A stretch of DNA of 64,000 bases from Chloroflexaceae bacterium (GTDB lineage Bacteria; Chloroflexota; Chloroflexia; Chloroflexales; Chloroflexaceae), in assembly GCA_028282325.1 (NCBI GenBank), contig JANQID010000067.1, positions 1-64,000 on the forward strand. The letters are read 5' to 3'. The translations under genes were made by a program, and so were the position numbers. Positions 24,009 to 39,126 of this stretch are shown here, in pieces. Under the pieces are notes generated by a model. The model saw only the letters and a list, made by a program, of their open reading frames with translations. It was not told the DNA's origin and ran no database searches. Position 1 is the stretch's first letter, and each line of letters opens with the position of its first letter.

Positions 24009-25016
<1,008 letters not shown>

Positions 25017-25063
25017 GTGTCGCCGCGCGGACGCCAACAACCAGGAGATAGGAAGGAACTCGT

Positions 25064-25387
25064 ATGAACATGAAAATGATCCGAGCTATTGTTCGCCCCG
25101 AAAAGGCCGAGAACGTCGCTGCATCGTTGGCGGCTGCAGGCTTCCCCGGCCTGACAAAGGTCGATGTCTACGGGCGTGGTCGCCAACGCGGCCTCACCGT
25201 CGATAACGTGCGCTACGAAGAACTCTCGAAGACATTGCTGATGCTAGTTGTCAATGACGATGATCTGGAGAAAGCGATCAATACGATCGAGGTCTCGGCG
25301 CTCACCGGCAACATTGGCGACGGCAAGATTTTCGTGACGCCCGTCGAGAAGACCTACACCATCCGCACCGGAAAAGAGGAGTTGTAG
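25064..25387 (+). CDS. nifI1: Nitrogen regulatory PII-like protein NifI1
   Basis: This 107-residue GlnB/PII-family protein lies directly after nifH, the place occupied by nifI1 in archaea and many anaerobic bacteria. It has the PII fold blocks MKMIRAIVRPEKAENVAASL, a short T-loop region with VYGRGRQRG, and TGNIGDGKIFV near residues 83-93. NifI1 and NifI2 together bind nitrogenase and inhibit it when ammonium is present; 2-oxoglutarate and ATP relieve the inhibition. It ends 2 bp before nifI2. The assignment rests on location plus family. Confidence 0.92.
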   Translation: MNMKMIRAIVRPEKAENVAASLAAAGFPGLTKVDVYGRGRQRGLTVDNVRYEELSKTLLMLVVNDDDLEKAINTIEVSALTGNIGDGKIFVTPVEKTYTIRTGKEEL

Positions 25388-25389
25388 CG

Positions 25390-25749
25390 ATGAAGGAAAT
25401 TATCGCCCTTGTGCGTATGAACGCCGTGCAGCATACCCGCGACGCATTGGCCGAAAAAGGCTACCCGGCGATGGTTGTCACGAATGTGATGGGGCGCGGA
25501 CGGCAGAAGGGTTTGCACTACGAAATGCATGCCAGCCCCAATGGCGGCGTCGAGGTGGGCACGCTGCACTTCTTGCCTAAGCGTATGATCAGCATCGTTG
25601 TTGCCGATAATCAGGCGGACGATGTCATTCAGACCATCATCGACGTGAACCAGACCGGCAATATCGGCGACGGCAAAATCTTTGTCTGCCCCGTCGCGGA
25701 GGTTATACGCATTCGAACGCGCGAGCATGGGGCCAGGGCTATTGCTTAG
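25390..25749 (+). CDS. nifI2: Nitrogen regulatory PII-like protein NifI2
   Basis: This 119-residue PII-family protein begins MKEIIALVRMNAVQHTRDAL and carries MGRGRQKGLHYE and TGNIGDGKIFVCPVAEVIRI (about residues 88-107). Its insertion relative to NifI1 in the T-loop region (HASPNGGVEVGTLHFLPKR) is typical of NifI2. It forms a complex with NifI1 that controls nitrogenase activity after translation. The gene is coupled to nifI1 (2 bp gap) and lies 74 bp before nifB. The pair suggests ammonium switch-off acts at the protein level rather than by a DraT/DraG system. Confidence 0.92.
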   Translation: MKEIIALVRMNAVQHTRDALAEKGYPAMVVTNVMGRGRQKGLHYEMHASPNGGVEVGTLHFLPKRMISIVVADNQADDVIQTIIDVNQTGNIGDGKIFVCPVAEVIRIRTREHGARAIA

Positions 25750-25823
25750 AGCCGGCTGCGCAGCGCAGTATCGGCGTCGTGCCGGTTGCACCGTGGAGAA
25801 TCGACTCGCATATGAGGTTTGTT

Positions 25824-26777
25824 ATGGACTATTCAGGTACGCTGGCTGGACAACAGCATTTGCTTCCCACGGCGGAGATCGCCGCACGGGTGGCCGAACA
25901 CCCCTGCTACAGCAAAGAGGCGCATGCTCGCAGCGGACGCATCCATGTTCCGGTTGCGCCGCGCTGCAACATCCAGTGCAACTACTGCACCCGCAAGTTT
26001 GCCTGTCCGAACGAGAACCGCCCCGGCGTCACGACAAAAGTCGTGTCGCCCAATGAGGCCGTCGTCACCATCCGCGACGCGCTCGCCAGGGAGCCGCGGC
26101 TGAAAGTGCTCGGCGTCGCCGGGCCCGGTGATGCGCTCGCCAACCGGGCGACGATCGAGACGTTCGAGAAGGCCAACGAGGCGTTTCCCTTCCTGACGCG
26201 TTGTCTGTCAACGAACGGGTTGTTGTTGCTCGACATGATCGACGATATTGAACGAGTCGGCATCACAACGCTGACCGTCACCATCAACGCCGTCGATCCC
26301 GATGTCGGCGAGCGCATCTACTCGCACGTTCGCTATCGCGGCAAAACCTATCGCGGGCGCGAGGCGTTCACGCTGCTCAACCGCAATCAATTGGAAGGAC
26401 TGCGCCGGGCCGCGTTGCGCGGCATGATTGTCAAGGTGAATTCGGTGCTGATCCCCGGCGTCAACGATCACCATCTGATCGACGTTGCACGCATCGTAAA
26501 AGCGCTGGGCGCCTATATCCTGAATATCATCCCGGTTATTCCGCTGGCGAAATTCGCGCATGTGCAACCGCCGACCGATGAAGAGGTCAACCAGGCGCGG
26601 GATGCATGCGAGACGGTGATCAGTCAGTTTCGCAATTGTCTGCGCTGTCGTGCTGATGCGATCGGCGTACCGGGCGAAGAGGGCTGCGGAAGCGGCGCGC
26701 TTGATCAGACATGCTCACCGCGATTTCTGCGCGACAAGCCCGTTTTCCGTCTTCAGAAGCAGGAAGCCGTCGGATAA
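25824..26777 (+). CDS. nifB: Radical SAM FeMo-cofactor precursor synthase NifB (short form)
   Basis: This protein of about 317 residues builds NifB-co, the [8Fe-9S-C] core of FeMo-cofactor. The radical SAM motif is CNIQCNYC (Cys48, Cys52, Cys55), followed by the NifB pattern TRKFACPNENRPGVT. The C-terminal block CLRCRADAIGVPGEEG is also diagnostic. There is no NifX-like C-terminal domain, so it is the short architecture found in archaea and some bacteria. The ATG at 25824 follows TGAGG; in-frame starts at 25812 and 25779 are possible. Its insertion between nifI2 and nifD is unusual for nif operons and fits the Roseiflexus-type order. Confidence 0.95.
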   Translation: MDYSGTLAGQQHLLPTAEIAARVAEHPCYSKEAHARSGRIHVPVAPRCNIQCNYCTRKFACPNENRPGVTTKVVSPNEAVVTIRDALAREPRLKVLGVAGPGDALANRATIETFEKANEAFPFLTRCLSTNGLLLLDMIDDIERVGITTLTVTINAVDPDVGERIYSHVRYRGKTYRGREAFTLLNRNQLEGLRRAALRGMIVKVNSVLIPGVNDHHLIDVARIVKALGAYILNIIPVIPLAKFAHVQPPTDEEVNQARDACETVISQFRNCLRCRADAIGVPGEEGCGSGALDQTCSPRFLRDKPVFRLQKQEAVG

Positions 26778-26816
26778 CGTGCTCCAGGCGCTTGACCACA
26801 AAGGAGGTTGTGATCT

Positions 26817-28241
26817 ATGACTACCGAAGAATTTCGTTTTCAGTGTAATACAACCCTGCCGGAGCGTGCGCCGCACGTTGCCGTCAAAGGTTCCTGCGGC
26901 TGCGTTCGTGCGGACGGCGCCGGGTGTTTTATCTCCAGCAACGTCGCCACTACTCCCGGCGATATGACCGAGCGTGGCTGTACCTACGCCGGTTGTCGTG
27001 GCGTGGTGGGCGGCCCCGTGCAAGATGTGATCCAGCTTACCCACGGCCCCATCGGCTGCGCCTTTTTCTCGTGGGGCTATCGCCCGCACGTGGCCGACGA
27101 CGATTTTCATATGAAGTACACCTTCGTTACCGATATGGACGAGACCAACATCGTCTTCGGCGGCGAGAAAAAGCTGCTTCAATCCATCGTTGAGGCGGCA
27201 AACGAATTTCCCGATGCGAAGGGCGTCTTTGTCTACAACACCTGCTCCACAGCGCTGATCGGTGACGACGGCAGAGATGTCGCCAAACGCGCGACCGAGA
27301 TGATCGGCAAGCCAGTCGTCTTCTTCGAGTGCGAAGGCTTCCGCGGCGTCAGCCAATCCGCCGGGCACCACATCGGGAATGAGACGATCTTCAAGGAGTT
27401 GGTCGGCTCGGTCGATCCAGAGGGCGACTTCTCGCGGGCGATCAACATTGTCGGCGACTATAACATCAAGCACGATATGCGCACCTTCGAGCCTTTGTTC
27501 GAGGAACTGGGCGTGAAGATCTTGACCCGCTTCACCGGCAATGTCAGGGTCGATCAGTTGAAGTCAATGCACAAGGCCGCACTCAATGTCGTCCACTGCG
27601 CCCGTTCGGCAACCTACATCGCCGAAATGATGCAGACGAAATACGGTACGCCTTTCATCGATGTGACGCTGTTCGGCATCAAGGCGATCGCGCAGGCGCT
27701 GCGCGATACGGCGACCTTCTTCGGGCTGGAAGAACAGGCCGAGCGCATCATCGAGCGCGAACTCGCCAAGATCGAACCTCAGATCGAATACTACCGCCAG
27801 CGTTTCCAGGGCAAGCGTGTCTTTGTTTACCAGGGCGGTCCGCGCGCCTGGCACTGGATCGAGATGTTCCGCGAGTTGGGACTGGAGACGATCGCCGCCG
27901 CGACGACCTTCGGCCACGAGGATGACTACGAGAAGATCTTCAACCGCATCCAGGTCGGTGGTCTGGTGGTTGACAACCCGAACGTGCCAGAGATTGAGGA
28001 AATTCTGACCCAGATCAAGCCGGATGTATTTGTATCTGGCAACAAAGAGAAATATGTCGCCTACAAATTGGGCGTGCCGTTCGTGAACGGGCACACCTAT
28101 GACACCGGTCCCTACGCGGGTTTCTCCGGCATGGTTCGCTTCGCCCGTGACATCGACAAAGCGATTTCTTCGCCGATCTGGAAGCTGTTGCACGCCGAGA
28201 GCCGGCCGGCGCCGGAATCTTATGCCGCAGCGGCGGATTAA
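26817..28241 (+). CDS. nifD: Nitrogenase MoFe-protein alpha chain NifD
   Basis: This 474-residue subunit holds the active-site cofactor. P-cluster ligands correspond to Cys55 (RGCTYAGC), Cys81 (GPIGCAFFSW) and Cys143 (NTCSTALIGDD). The cofactor ligands are Cys261 in VVHCARSATYI and His426 in NGHTYDTGPYAGF. Gln180 and His184 in GVSQSAGHHI match the homocitrate and substrate-channel residues. The start follows AAGGAGG. Odd features are extra N-terminal cysteines (Cys10, Cys27, Cys29, Cys37) and divergent stretches such as FSWGYRPHV and LFGIKAIAQALRDTA where Mo-nitrogenases usually have YSRAGRR and FFGPTKT. It is probably a true but divergent nitrogenase. Vanadium or iron-only types seem unlikely, with no AnfG/VnfG gene here. 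Confidence 0.93.
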   Translation: MTTEEFRFQCNTTLPERAPHVAVKGSCGCVRADGAGCFISSNVATTPGDMTERGCTYAGCRGVVGGPVQDVIQLTHGPIGCAFFSWGYRPHVADDDFHMKYTFVTDMDETNIVFGGEKKLLQSIVEAANEFPDAKGVFVYNTCSTALIGDDGRDVAKRATEMIGKPVVFFECEGFRGVSQSAGHHIGNETIFKELVGSVDPEGDFSRAINIVGDYNIKHDMRTFEPLFEELGVKILTRFTGNVRVDQLKSMHKAALNVVHCARSATYIAEMMQTKYGTPFIDVTLFGIKAIAQALRDTATFFGLEEQAERIIERELAKIEPQIEYYRQRFQGKRVFVYQGGPRAWHWIEMFRELGLETIAAATTFGHEDDYEKIFNRIQVGGLVVDNPNVPEIEEILTQIKPDVFVSGNKEKYVAYKLGVPFVNGHTYDTGPYAGFSGMVRFARDIDKAISSPIWKLLHAESRPAPESYAAAAD

Positions 28242-28264
28242 CGTCCTGGAAAGGAAATCTTGCA

Positions 28265-29716
28265 ATGACTGTCGTAACCAAACAAGAGCGGGCGGTCGCG
28301 ATCAACCCTACCCGTGCCTGCGCGCCGATGGGCGCGATGCTTGCCGCTTACGGAGTCCACGGCGCGATCACGATTAACCACGGCTCGCAGGGGTGTGCTA
28401 CCTATCCGCGGCACCAGATGACCCGCCACTTCCGCGAACCGGTGGAAGTCGCCACCACCTCGCTGACCGAGAAAACAACGGTGTATGGCGGGCGCGATAA
28501 CCTGATGGCGGCGATAAAGAATATCTGGGAACGCTTCCGTCCGACGATGATCACCATCTGTTCGACGTGCCTCTCGGAAACGATCGGCGATGATGTGTCC
28601 TCGATCATCGCCGAGTTTCAGGAAAGCAACCCGGATGTCACGATCCCGATACTGTCGGTGAAGACGCCATCATACGTTGGCACGCATACCACCGGATTCG
28701 ACAACTTCCTGAAGGAAATTGCAGCGACGATGCCGCATCGCCGCAGCCGGGGCGACGTCAACGGTCGCGTGAACATTATGCCCGGCTGGGTCAATCCCGG
28801 TGATATCCGTGAGTTGAAGCATATCGTGCGCGAGATGCAGGTCGATGGGTTGTGGCTAACCGATTACGCCGATACGCTTGACGGCGGCTACTACTCCCCG
28901 CGCCCGCATTTTCCGCACGGTGGCACGACAATCGAGGAGTTGCGCGACTCGTCGCGCTCGTTGGCGACAATCGCGTTGCAAAAGCATGTGGGCGGTGACG
29001 CCGCCCGTCTCTACAAACGTCGCTACAATGTGCCGGCTCACGTCCTGCCGATGCCGATCGGTCTGAAGAATACCGATACCTTCATCGACACCATGACCAA
29101 GATTACTGGCAATTTGCCGTCTATCGAAGTCCAGGCTGAGCGCGCCCGGCTGCTCGATGTCATCGTGGATACGCATATGTTTAACACCGGCCTGAAGGCG
29201 GCCATCTACGGCGATCCGGATCTCGTCGAAGGACTGGCGCGCCTGGTCGCCGAGATGGGGATGCAGCCCCGGTTCGTGCTGATCCCGTCGAACTCGCAGA
29301 AATGGGCCGACGATATGACCGCCCTTGCCGACGAGATGGGCGTGGATATGGAAATTATGCTCAAGAGCGACATGCACGAGTTGCACAAGCGCATCAAGGC
29401 CGAGCACGTCGATCTGCTCATCGGCCATTCCAAGGGCAAATTTATCGCCGACGCCGAGAAGATACCGCTCATTCGGGTTGGCTTCCCGATCGAAGATCGC
29501 TTCGGCTATCACCGTCGGGCGGTGGTCGGCTACAAGGGCGCAATGTATCTGATCGATGAGATCACCAACGCAGCGCTGGAGAAGCGCGGCAATGTGGTGA
29601 GCAATACGTTGATGGAGATCGATCTGCTGCCGGCGGAGTCCACGAACGGCAATGGCTGCCGGGTGAATTTCAACGGCAAACATTCCATAACCGAGAATCC
29701 AGCATCCGAAGATTGA
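28265..29716 (+). CDS. nifK: Nitrogenase MoFe-protein beta chain NifK
   Basis: This 483-residue subunit completes the alpha2beta2 MoFe protein. P-cluster ligands correspond to Cys19 (TRACAPMGA), Cys44 (GSQGCATY) and Cys102 (STCLSETIGDD). The blocks RHFREPV, VYGGRDNL and TPSYVGTHTTGFDNF are standard NifK. It is shorter at the N-terminus than the proteobacterial form and resembles clostridial and archaeal NifK. The gene starts 23 bp after nifD with GAAAGGAAATC upstream. No nifE or nifN follows; two small genes take their place. Confidence 0.93.
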   Translation: MTVVTKQERAVAINPTRACAPMGAMLAAYGVHGAITINHGSQGCATYPRHQMTRHFREPVEVATTSLTEKTTVYGGRDNLMAAIKNIWERFRPTMITICSTCLSETIGDDVSSIIAEFQESNPDVTIPILSVKTPSYVGTHTTGFDNFLKEIAATMPHRRSRGDVNGRVNIMPGWVNPGDIRELKHIVREMQVDGLWLTDYADTLDGGYYSPRPHFPHGGTTIEELRDSSRSLATIALQKHVGGDAARLYKRRYNVPAHVLPMPIGLKNTDTFIDTMTKITGNLPSIEVQAERARLLDVIVDTHMFNTGLKAAIYGDPDLVEGLARLVAEMGMQPRFVLIPSNSQKWADDMTALADEMGVDMEIMLKSDMHELHKRIKAEHVDLLIGHSKGKFIADAEKIPLIRVGFPIEDRFGYHRRAVVGYKGAMYLIDEITNAALEKRGNVVSNTLMEIDLLPAESTNGNGCRVNFNGKHSITENPASED

Positions 29717-34930: not shown

Positions 34931-34977
34931 ATTGTTAACGAAGTAGAATGACTTCATTCAAGGGGCGTTACAAGAAT

Positions 34978-36273
34978 ATGGGGATAAAAAATTCACGCCT
35001 TCAAGGTTTCTTCCAGCTTGGTCCTCTCGAACGACTCGAAAAAGTTCAAGCGTTTGATGGACTTTCGGATAGCGATGTCAACTCGCTTCACGGCGGCGCT
35101 GGCGGACTATCACTTGAGCGGGCCGATAAAATGATCGAGAATGTGATTGGCACGTACAACCTGCCGCTTGGCATCGCGACCAACTTTCGTATCAATGGTC
35201 GCGATATGCTGATCCCGATGGTGGTCGAAGAGCCATCAATTGTCGCTGGCGCGAGTTATGCGGCAAAGCTTATTCGCGCCGGGGGCGGTTTTCAAACAAG
35301 CAGCACCGATCCGTTGATGATTGGTCAAGTCCAGCTTGTGCGAGTGGCCGATCCCAACAATGCGCGGGCCAAGATTCTCGAACGCAAGGATGAGCTTCTG
35401 TCGATTGCTAATGCCCAGAGCCGATCACTGGTCAGGTTGGGCGGCGGCGCTCGCGATGTCGAAGTGAACTACTTTTCGACCAGCCCGATGGGGCCGATGC
35501 TGGTCGTGCATCTGATTGTGGATTGCCGCGATGCAATGGGCGCCAACGCTATCAACAGCATGTGCGAAGCGGTGGCTATGCTGCTTGAGCAGATTACCGG
35601 CGGGCGCGCCTACTTGCGAATCTTGTCGAATCTGAGTGATCGACGTTTGTCGCGCGTGCGGGTGGTAGTTCCCCCGTCGGCGCTTGAGCGTGACGGAATG
35701 ACGGGCGAGGAAGTGGTTGACGGCATTCTCTGGGCCTATTCCTTCGCCGCCGTTGATCCCTATCGGGCGACGACGCATAACAAGGGCATTCTCAACGGTA
35801 TTGATCCGGTGCTTGTTGCAACCGGCAATGATTGGCGCGCTGTCGAATCGGGGGCGCATGCCTATGCGTCGCGCAATGGCCGCTATACGTCGTTGAGCGT
35901 TTGGGAGCGTGACGAAGAGGGCAATCTTGTCGGCGTGCTTGAGATGCCGCTGGCGGTTGGCATTGTGGGCGGCGCAACCAAAGTTCATCCCACGGCGCAG
36001 GCTGCGCTCAAGTTGCTTGGCGTGCAGCATGCCAGTGACCTGGCGGAAATCTGTGTCGCGGCCGGCCTGGCGAATAATCTGGCAGCGATGCGTGCGTTGG
36101 CTTGCGAGGGAATCCAGCGTGGTCATATGGGCCTTCACGCACGGCAAATTGCAATGGCAGCCGGTGCGACCGACAGTCTCGTAGATGAGTTGGCCCGCCG
36201 TATGGTTGAGGAACGCAATATTAAGCCCGCGCGCGCCGCAGAGTTGCTGGCTGAACTACAGCTACAGGGATAG
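34978..36273 (+). CDS. mvaA: Hydroxymethylglutaryl-CoA reductase, class II type
   Basis: This 431-residue cytosolic enzyme converts HMG-CoA to mevalonate for isoprenoid synthesis. Family blocks include [18 protein letters not shown] at the start, [19 protein letters not shown] (about 54-72, with the catalytic Glu region), [38 protein letters not shown] (with the conserved Asp), and the C-terminal [10 protein letters not shown] with the catalytic His. The length and lack of a membrane anchor place it in class II. ATG 34978 aligns with the family start; ATG 34948 would lie only 11 bases after the predicted transcription start. It begins a mevalonate block with HMG-CoA synthase, a thiolase homologue and a DUF35 protein. 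Confidence 0.92.
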
Positions 36274-36418: not shown

Positions 36419-37468
36419 ATGATGCAACCAGATCGTCCCGTGGGCTTGATTGGCTATGGGGTTTATATACCACGCTATCGCATCGCTGCGAATGAGATCG
36501 CGCGTATATGGACTGACGGACAAAGTGGAGCTCCTATCGAAGCGAAGAGCGTTCCCGGACCTGACGAGGATACCGTTACGATTTCGATCGAAGCTGCGCG
36601 GAACGCTCTCGCTCGTTCAGGAATCCGCGCCGAGCAGTTGAATGCGATCTGGATCGGTAGTGAAAGCCATCCCTACAGCGTGAAACCCAGCGGCACGATT
36701 GTTGCCGAAGCTCTCGGTACAACTCCCTGGATCAGCGCGGCGGATTGGGAATTCGCATGCAAAGCGGGTAGTGAGGCGCTGACTGCGGGAATGGGCATGG
36801 TCGGCAGCAGAATGGCCGAATATGTTCTGTCAATTGGCGCAGATACGGCGCAGGGACGCCCCGGCGATGCGCTTGAGTATACCGCTTCGGCGGGGGCGGC
36901 TGCATTCATCCTTGGACCGGCTGATGAGTGTCTGGCTCAGATTGAAGCCACAGTCTCTTATGTTACCGATACCCCGGACTTCTTCCGCCGCGCCGATCGC
37001 CCCTATCCCGTGCATGGGAATCGTTTCACCGGCGAACCGGCCTATTTTCATCAGATACAAAGCTCGGTGAAGCGCTTGATGCACGAACTTGATCGCCAAC
37101 CGCAAGATTATACATATGCGATTCTCCACCAGCCGAATGCCAAGTTCCCGCAAGCCGCTGCGAAACGCCTCGGTTTTACGCCGGAGCAGCTCGCACCCGG
37201 TTTGCTTTCACCGAAAATTGGCAATACATACTCGGCAGCGGCTCTGTCCGGACTTTGTGCTGCATTAGATGTCGCTCAGCCAGGCGATTCTATTCTGGTA
37301 GCAAGTTACGGCAGCGGTGCAGGAAGCGATGCATACTCGTTTGTCGTCAACGAGAAAATTCTGGAGCGCCGCCATCTGGCGCCGTTGACATCCGTCTACC
37401 TAGAGCGCAAGACGTTTGTTGATTATGCCGTCTATGTCAAGTGGCGCGGCAAACTCGTTATGGGATGA
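36419..37468 (+). CDS. Hydroxymethylglutaryl-CoA synthase, archaeal type
   Basis: This 349-residue enzyme condenses acetyl-CoA with acetoacetyl-CoA. It resembles the archaeal HMGS group: VGLIGYGVYIPRYRIAANEI at the start, Glu82 in GSESHPYSVKP, nucleophile Cys114 in WEFACKAGSEAL and His237 in AILHQPNAKFPQAAA. All three catalytic residues are present. In archaea this enzyme forms a complex with a thiolase and a DUF35 protein that channels acetoacetyl-CoA; here both partner genes follow directly (63 and 32 bp gaps). The start is ATG 36419 (36422 possible) after AACAGGAG. A mevalonate route of this type in a bacterium is a feature of Roseiflexus-like Chloroflexota. Confidence 0.92.
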   Translation: MMQPDRPVGLIGYGVYIPRYRIAANEIARIWTDGQSGAPIEAKSVPGPDEDTVTISIEAARNALARSGIRAEQLNAIWIGSESHPYSVKPSGTIVAEALGTTPWISAADWEFACKAGSEALTAGMGMVGSRMAEYVLSIGADTAQGRPGDALEYTASAGAAAFILGPADECLAQIEATVSYVTDTPDFFRRADRPYPVHGNRFTGEPAYFHQIQSSVKRLMHELDRQPQDYTYAILHQPNAKFPQAAAKRLGFTPEQLAPGLLSPKIGNTYSAAALSGLCAALDVAQPGDSILVASYGSGAGSDAYSFVVNEKILERRHLAPLTSVYLERKTFVDYAVYVKWRGKLVMG

Positions 37469-37531: not shown

Positions 37532-38698
37532 ATGAAACCGGTTTATATCGTCGGCGCGCATGCTACATCGGTTGCCGAGCATTATGAGTTCTCGCTGGCT
37601 GATTTAGCGCTAGAGGCGTTGCGCGGCGCATTCAAAATGGTGACTCCAGCATTGGAACCAGAGCGGATTGGGGCGATCTATGTCGCGAATGCGTTCGGCG
37701 AGGCGCTGGTCGGTCAGGCCAATCTGGGCGCAGCCCTGGCTTCCGCCGCCGGCCTCAGCGGCATCGATGCGCTGCGTGTGGAAGCCGCCGGAGCGAGCGG
37801 CGGCCTGGCGCTGCGTCAAGCTGCAATGGCGGTGATCTGCGGCACGTATGATCTGGTTGCCGTTCTGGGCGCCGAGAAAGTTACCGACAAGCTGGAAGAT
37901 CGGATGGAAGCTGCGCAGATGCTCTCCATCGATTCCGATACCGAAGCGGATATTGGTGCAACATTGACGTCGCAATGGGCGCTCTTGATGCGTCGCTATA
38001 TGCACGAGTATGGCTACGAGGCCGCTGACTTCGCACCGTTTCCGATCAATGCGCATAGCAATGGCAAGCACAATCGCGAAGCGCTCTATCGTTTCTCGAT
38101 AACGGCTGAGAAATATCTCAAAGCGCCGCAAATAGCATCTCCCTTGAATATGCTGGATTGCTCTTCGCTGGGCGATGGCGCAGCGGTAGTCCTTGTCGCT
38201 TCCGAACGTCTGGCGCGTGAACTGACTTCGCCCCGCGTTCGGATTGGCGGGAGCGGTCTGTCCACCGATACGGCGGCGCTCTATCAACGCCGCGATCCGC
38301 TCTTGCTCAATGCTGCCCGGCAAAGTGCAGCGACGGCGATGCAGCAGGCCGGGGTCGTTCACGCCGATATTGACGTTTTGGAATTCACCGATCCGCACAG
38401 CATCGCCGCCGCACTGGCATTGGAAGCCAGCAGGTTTGTCGATCGCGGAGCCGCGCCGCGTCATGCGGCTGATGGCGGCATCACCGTGAGCGGCGCCACC
38501 CCGATCGCTACGGCCGGCGGCTACAAAGCCCGCGGCGATGTTGGCGGTGCCAACGGTGTGTATCAACTCGTCGAACTTGTTCGGCAGTTGCAGGGAAATG
38601 CCGGCGCAGCGCAGGTTCCAAACGCACGCGTGGCATTCGCGCAGTGCCTTGGGGGCGTCGGTTCAACTGCTATATCGCATATCCTCCTTGCGGAGTAA
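37532..38698 (+). CDS. Thiolase-superfamily protein lacking the usual catalytic residues
   Basis: This 388-residue protein has the thiolase fold and stands where archaea encode the acetoacetyl-CoA thiolase partner of HMGS. The nucleophile motif normally read as EACASGG is EAAGASGG here: Gly87 (codon GGA at 37790-37792) replaces Cys. The usual His in the HD motif is replaced (EFTDPHS, residues 284-290), and the GHPxGxTG motif reads GDVGGANG (about 335-342). The C-terminal Cys372 in AQCLGG is kept. The protein is full length with a good ribosome binding site (GAGAGGG), so it is not an obvious pseudogene. It could be a structural partner of HMGS and the DUF35 protein, with acetoacetyl-CoA supplied by another thiolase. 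Confidence 0.8.
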   Translation: MKPVYIVGAHATSVAEHYEFSLADLALEALRGAFKMVTPALEPERIGAIYVANAFGEALVGQANLGAALASAAGLSGIDALRVEAAGASGGLALRQAAMAVICGTYDLVAVLGAEKVTDKLEDRMEAAQMLSIDSDTEADIGATLTSQWALLMRRYMHEYGYEAADFAPFPINAHSNGKHNREALYRFSITAEKYLKAPQIASPLNMLDCSSLGDGAAVVLVASERLARELTSPRVRIGGSGLSTDTAALYQRRDPLLLNAARQSAATAMQQAGVVHADIDVLEFTDPHSIAAALALEASRFVDRGAAPRHAADGGITVSGATPIATAGGYKARGDVGGANGVYQLVELVRQLQGNAGAAQVPNARVAFAQCLGGVGSTAISHILLAE

Positions 38699-38730
38699 CC
38701 TTGTAGAGCAAATAGGAGCAGAAATAGATC

Positions 38731-39126
38731 ATGGATATTGCAAAACATTGGCGCCAGCGCGCGACGCGCTATCGTATGCAAGGCCAGCGCCATCGTGAAA
38801 CGGGAGAGATCCGGTTTCCGGCGCGTCCGTCTGCCTTGTGCGAAGATCCCGCAGTATGGGAGCCATACATTCTCAGCGGTCGCGGAGAAATTTATAGCTT
38901 TACCGTCTTGCGTCAATCTGCAGACGGCTTCGTCGATCTAACGCCGTATCCGCTCGCGATGGTGCGCCTGAATGAGGGACCACTGGTGGTCGCGCAGCTC
39001 ACCGATTGTGAAGAGGCGGAATTGTCTATTGGCCAGCCGGTCGAAATGGTTACGCGGCGTCTTAAAGATACCGGTGAGGATGGGGTGTTAGTATACGGTT
39101 ATAAGTTCCGTCCGGTGCTGTCTTAA
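38731..39126 (+). CDS. DUF35/OB-fold protein of the HMGS-thiolase complex, zinc ribbon degenerate
   Basis: This 131-residue protein resembles the small OB-fold partner (DUF35, ChsH2-like) that bridges HMGS and thiolase in archaea. The region RYRMQGQRHRETGEIRFPAR (about residues 12-31) matches the family start, where a CxxC...CxxC zinc ribbon normally sits, but only one Cys (about 36) remains. The OB fold follows (GRGEIYSFTVLRQ, AMVRLNEGPLVVAQL, YGYKFRPVL). It follows the thiolase homologue by 32 bp. Loss of zinc ligands together with loss of thiolase catalytic residues suggests the whole sub-complex has changed role. Confidence 0.78.
   Translation: MDIAKHWRQRATRYRMQGQRHRETGEIRFPARPSALCEDPAVWEPYILSGRGEIYSFTVLRQSADGFVDLTPYPLAMVRLNEGPLVVAQLTDCEEAELSIGQPVEMVTRRLKDTGEDGVLVYGYKFRPVLS

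Follow-up and report, generated by a model that had tools for sequence, protein, structure and literature searches.

The window, i.e. the whole stretch of DNA analysed, spans 64,000 nucleotides and corresponds to positions 1-64,000, forward strand, of contig JANQID010000067.1 of a Chloroflexaceae bacterium (assembly GCA_028282325.1). It contains a cluster composed of the following genes:

34948..36273, + strand: HMG-CoA reductase (HMGR), 441 aa, the following pathway step (PF00368, TIGR00532)
36419..37468, + strand: archaeal-type HMG-CoA synthase (HMGS), 349 aa (NCBIfam equivalogs above cut-off; HMGS of 6ESQ, E 9.9e-122)
37532..38698, + strand: pseudo-thiolase, 388 aa, archaeal-type thiolase family (PF00108 and PF22691 above cut-off; NCBIfam; 7YVY, 6ESQ)
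38731..39126, + strand: DUF35 protein, 131 aa (PF01796, OB fold kept; four-Cys zinc ribbon lost)

The thiolase-like and DUF35 genes are separated by 32 bp and both lie directly downstream of HMGS and HMGR. An earlier, sequence-only reading had described the thiolase, HMGS and DUF35 genes as full length and adjacent, and its coordinates, frames and lengths (388 aa and 131 aa for the last two) were found to be correct. Elsewhere in the window, at 24063-29716, a nitrogenase-like row was noted, with nifH-, nifB-, nifD- and nifK-like genes recognized by eye and neither nifE nor nifN evident in the ORF list.

The thiolase-like protein belongs to the thiolase family by both sequence (Pfam matches above cut-off) and fold. 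Its closest solved relatives are 7YVY (E 3.7e-77), which is also the top fold match, and 6ESQ. An AlphaFold2 model, based on 8 sequences, recovered the thiolase fold, with a mean pLDDT of 68 and a poorly modelled loop domain. The residues expected of an acetoacetyl-CoA thiolase, namely the nucleophilic Cys and the catalytic His of the HDAF and GHP motifs, are lacking. The relevant positions are:

37790..37792, + strand: Gly87 codon, aligned with the nucleophilic Cys of 7YVY and 6ESQ
37976..37978, + strand: Trp149 codon (Asn in 25 of 25 Cys-bearing copies, Trp in 51 of 51 copies from the order)
38387..38398, + strand: Thr286-Asp287-Pro288-His289, replacing the HDAF motif (alignment, 51 order sequences)
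38537..38539, + strand: Asp336 codon, replacing the His of GHP (alignment, 51 order sequences)

When aligned to 7YVY and 6ESQ, Thr286-Asp287-Pro288-His289 falls on HDAF/HDCF, so that Thr286 replaces the first catalytic His; Gly335-Asp336 falls on the GH of GHP/GHA, where Asp336 replaces the second. This comparison with the archaeal set, proposed in the sequence-only reading, bears out its claims that Gly replaces the nucleophile and that the His motifs are changed (EFTDPHS, GDVGGANG). Across the order and its relatives, it would be a mistake to annotate this gene as an acetyl-CoA acetyltransferase.

The synthase, described as intact by the same reading, is so: the catalytic Glu82, Cys114 and His237 are all present. 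The closest solved relative is the corresponding chain of 6ESQ, and the archaeal catalytic pair carries the same numbers, Glu82 and Cys114 (PMC6392133). The catalytic residues are retained in every HMGS sequence covering those positions.

The DUF35 protein, whose closest solved relative is also a 6ESQ chain, has indeed lost the four-Cys ribbon. It had been credited with a single Cys, which holds for the former ribbon (Cys37) and not for the whole protein, where Cys93 is also found. Among 51 order sequences, 47 have no ribbon Cys and 4 have one. In some loci of the order another gene sits between thiolase and DUF35. What intervenes in many Roseiflexaceae-type loci is a conserved gene of about 200 aa, membrane-protein-like and, by eye, similar to the Yip1 type (examples are L012:2774-3394, L020:2733-3440 and L028:2686-3432, along with similar order loci); it is not at that place in the window.

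The generality of these features was evaluated in a sample of 61 genomes, comprising the window's own and 60 relatives from its family and order. A thiolase match was detected in 56 of the 61, including G007 and G030, where the best match is no more than a paralogue at 40% or pieces on broken contigs. In the 51 order sequences compared, the nucleophile is missing throughout: position 87 is Gly in 50 and Thr in 1. Position 286 is Thr in 25, Ser in 23, Cys in 2 and His in 1, position 336 is Asp in 50 and Asn in 1, and His289 and Trp149 are invariant (51/51 each). In the comparison set of 25 Chloroflexota copies, defined by presence of the nucleophilic Cys, the corresponding residues are His286, Phe289, His336 and Asn149 throughout. 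A sequencing or frame error as the cause of the Cys loss is ruled out by the agreement of 51 homologues; the loss is far beyond chance or such error. The cluster can be described as a known three-protein set in which a pseudo-thiolase takes the place of the thiolase, and its conservation across this order of green non-sulphur bacteria is confirmed.

Selection was evaluated with a Nei-Gojobori-type estimator on close pairs from six genera. Omega ranges between 0.03 and 0.18 for the thiolase gene and between about 0.01 and 0.29 for DUF35, and is usually lower for HMGS; the estimator is simple, some of the dS values are high and one pair is too nearly identical to be informative. Purifying selection acts on both genes, and neither shows decay. 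The three genes are adjacent and conserved together, as looked for in a complex. Their presence is also joint: in five genomes of the order lacking the thiolase, archaeal-type HMGS and such a DUF35 are likewise absent. The pattern is less clean in three fragmented assemblies: in G007 and G030 HMGS lies on broken contigs and no intact thiolase was found, while in G009 a partial thiolase was detected and HMGS was not found.

These data bear on the idea that the protein is a functionless relic heading for loss. The lost catalytic residues and an omega somewhat above that of HMGS would agree with it; against it stand the uninterrupted, full-length frames seen in four families, the low omega and the fact that the gene occurs, or is missing, together with HMGS. 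The idea has next to no likelihood. Decay toward loss is ruled out by the low omega. Of the "structural relic" proposed in the sequence-only reading, the relic half, in the sense of decay, does not hold, given omega of 0.03-0.18 and co-occurrence with HMGS and DUF35, while the structural half fits best.

Outside the order, HMGS-linked members of the family are of two kinds: either Cys and both His are retained, together with a zinc-bearing DUF35, or Cys is lost and the His are partly lost. The first kind includes L086 (a Calditrichaeota-labelled contig), L104, L107, L111, L120, L121 and L123. In the second the Cys is replaced by Gly, Asp, Glu or Gln, a variety that points to lost chemistry, and such copies always lie beside HMGS. 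Thiolase copies away from HMGS keep the Cys in 18 cases out of 21. Fifteen genomes contain both a degenerate HMGS-linked copy and an unlinked, Cys-bearing one. A contig scan with a single protein query yielded only 7 loci. The unlinked copies L050, L051 and L126 have Thr at the Cys position and keep both His motifs; they form a separate clade, with a Cys loss of their own.

With the catalytic columns left out of the tree, a single clade (UFBoot 96, SH-aLRT 97) unites 49 HMGS-linked copies that lack the Cys and extends from the order into other Chloroflexota; adding L082 to this clade is not rejected (AU p 0.51). The linkage pattern is thus largely one historical event. For this reason the Fisher p is not independent evidence, the pattern being mostly one event rather than many cases, and few independent events enter the independent-pairs test of Cys loss versus HMGS linkage.

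A Cys loss confined to the order is ruled out, as it reaches other Chloroflexota, where the ribbon is mostly kept. Four ribbon Cys were found in the DUF35 of 15 out of 16 loci outside the order; about ten degenerate linked loci had no DUF35 detected nearby. Most degenerate non-order copies with a nearby DUF35 still have the ribbon, so that its loss appears to have followed that of the Cys. The exception among the 16 is L084, with a ribbon-less DUF35 (L084:1028-1423); the adjacent thiolase has Asp at the Cys position and keeps both His.

The source of acetoacetyl-CoA was then considered. A search for a second thiolase, suggested in the sequence-only reading, retrieved four further classical thiolases from the window's genome, all with intact Cys, NEAF, GHP and second-Cys motifs. 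A second archaeal-type thiolase is not there, the PF22691 match being single. At least one classical thiolase is encoded in 60 of the 61 sample genomes; none turned up in G058, a genome 92% complete whose sister G039 does encode one. The proposal that acetoacetyl-CoA comes from elsewhere is upheld as a possibility by these counts. DXR and IspG were not found in the window's genome, which agrees with the mevalonate route demonstrated in Roseiflexus castenholzii (PMC3857490). In G023, G044, G049, G052 and G059, two of which are rated 100% complete, neither archaeal-type HMGS nor DXR nor IspG was found. A bacterial-type HMGS as replacement in cluster-less genomes of the order was rejected, matching in 1 of 5 only (G052).

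The abundance of classical thiolases is also relevant to the alternative that the protein retains acetoacetyl-CoA thiolase activity, its nucleophile now being another residue, e.g. Cys372 or His289. Cys372 does occupy the position of the second catalytic Cys (CxG motif) of classical thiolases. However, a shift of the nucleophile to this residue was rejected for its poor conservation (Cys in 38 of 51 sequences, with Ser, Thr or Val in the others), neither of the two His bases is retained, and the activity would be unneeded where classical thiolases are present. Retained activity is therefore very improbable.

More weight can be given to the alternative that the old pocket was rebuilt in the order, with Trp149, His289 and Asp336 as working residues, either for another CoA-ester reaction or for holding a CoA ligand through which HMGS is regulated. 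These residues are nearly invariant (51/51, 51/51 and 50/51) and differ from those fixed in Cys-bearing copies, and a precedent is given by Ltp2 and Sal, thiolase-fold aldolases with DUF35 partners (PMC12329534). However, the position of the former first catalytic His varies among Thr, Ser, Cys and His, a drift which, judged from the alignment, argues against old-type chemistry; the YDHF or YDCY motif of Ltp2 and Sal is absent; the genomic context includes only HMGS and HMGR; and outside the order the pocket is variable. Altogether, a rebuilt pocket seems unlikely. The more specific version, in which the rebuilt site binds or transforms a CoA metabolite and so controls HMGS within the same complex, DUF35 being now a metal-free scaffold, is similarly doubtful. 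The "new reaction" mentioned in the sequence-only reading keeps some, though low, probability, as several pocket positions have been re-fixed in the order.

The reading that we favour, and consider probable, is that the pseudo-thiolase is a non-catalytic subunit of an archaeal-type thiolase/HMGS/DUF35 complex, with a structural role and a part in the CoA site, and that acetoacetyl-CoA is taken from the pool. Nucleophile loss in 51 of 51 sequences, an HMGS intact wherever covered, purifying selection and joint presence and absence fit this reading best. It is also favoured by the varied replacement of the Cys outside the order, the single clade of 49 copies, the classical thiolases in nearly all sample genomes and the precedents of 6ESQ and PhlA. 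A physical complex with a shared CoA site is suggested by homology to 6ESQ: descriptions of the archaeal complex report that CoA is bound by residues from all three proteins and that DUF35 tethers thiolase and HMGS (PMC6392133, PMC12329534). Given such a shared site and tether, HMGS could be deprived of its assembly and of a part of its CoA site if the thiolase fold went missing, even where the thiolase reaction has become dispensable.

According to this scaffold reading, the three proteins would still assemble, with the thiolase fold holding DUF35 and HMGS together and retaining its share of the three-protein CoA site, while classical thiolases would supply pool acetoacetyl-CoA, to be taken up by HMGS. 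As for its history, the HMGS-linked copy probably lost the Cys first, other thiolases retaining the reaction, and then the His residues; finally, in the order, its partner would have lost the zinc ribbon. The re-fixation of Trp149, His289 and Asp336, which is more than a passive relic pocket needs, stands against a purely passive role; these residues may plug the old pocket, Trp149 with its aromatic ring and the other two as a His-Asp pair, or make up a new site. Other points against the scaffold reading are the degenerate linked loci outside the order that have no DUF35 close by, the gene interposed before DUF35 in some order loci, the mostly single event behind the linkage pattern, and the unpaired HMGS or thiolase of G007, G030 and G009.

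Literature searches, of partial coverage, retrieved no description of this pseudo-thiolase. The set appears to have dropped the thiolase step and yet retained the protein, so that assembly and channelling could be told apart by experiment. In addition, classical thiolases become the likely entry to the isoprenoid route in these phototrophs and their relatives.

The archaeal complex is explained by channelling, in which HMGS pulls the unfavourable thiolase step. The same three gene families lie side by side in the window as in the archaeal set (6ESQ), but Cys85 and the two His of the archaeal thiolase are lost in the window, as is the zinc ribbon of the archaeal DUF35. Because of these losses, a complex of the window's proteins could not itself make and channel acetoacetyl-CoA. 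Similarly, the Pyrococcus furiosus thiolase PFC_04095 (7YVY), although closest among solved sequences and top in fold comparison, keeps Cys, HDAF and GHP.

Ltp2 and Sal, thiolase-fold proteins turned into aldolases (PMC12329534), form with their DUF35 partners the steroid aldolases Ltp2-ChsH2 and Sal-Shy (6OK1, 9MYR), and share with the window's pair the altered thiolase active site. Their YDHF/YDCY motifs (PMC12329534) and steroid degradation context, in contrast, were not found here: Tyr never occurs at position 286 of the 51 order sequences, which have Thr, Ser, Cys or His there.

The same three-subunit architecture, with one non-catalytic thiolase-fold subunit, is found in PhlACB (PpATase), a Friedel-Crafts acylase of Pseudomonas protegens (5M3K, 5MG5). 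There, the HMGS-like subunit PhlA has Gly115 in place of Cys and is required for a functional complex, in which only PhlC residues act (PMC6392133). The two cases are mirror images: PhlACB has a dead HMGS-like subunit and acts through the thiolase-like PhlC, whereas in the window's set it is the thiolase-like subunit that is dead, next to an intact HMGS. Taken together, they suggest that, in this architecture, each of the thiolase-fold subunits is able to turn non-catalytic.
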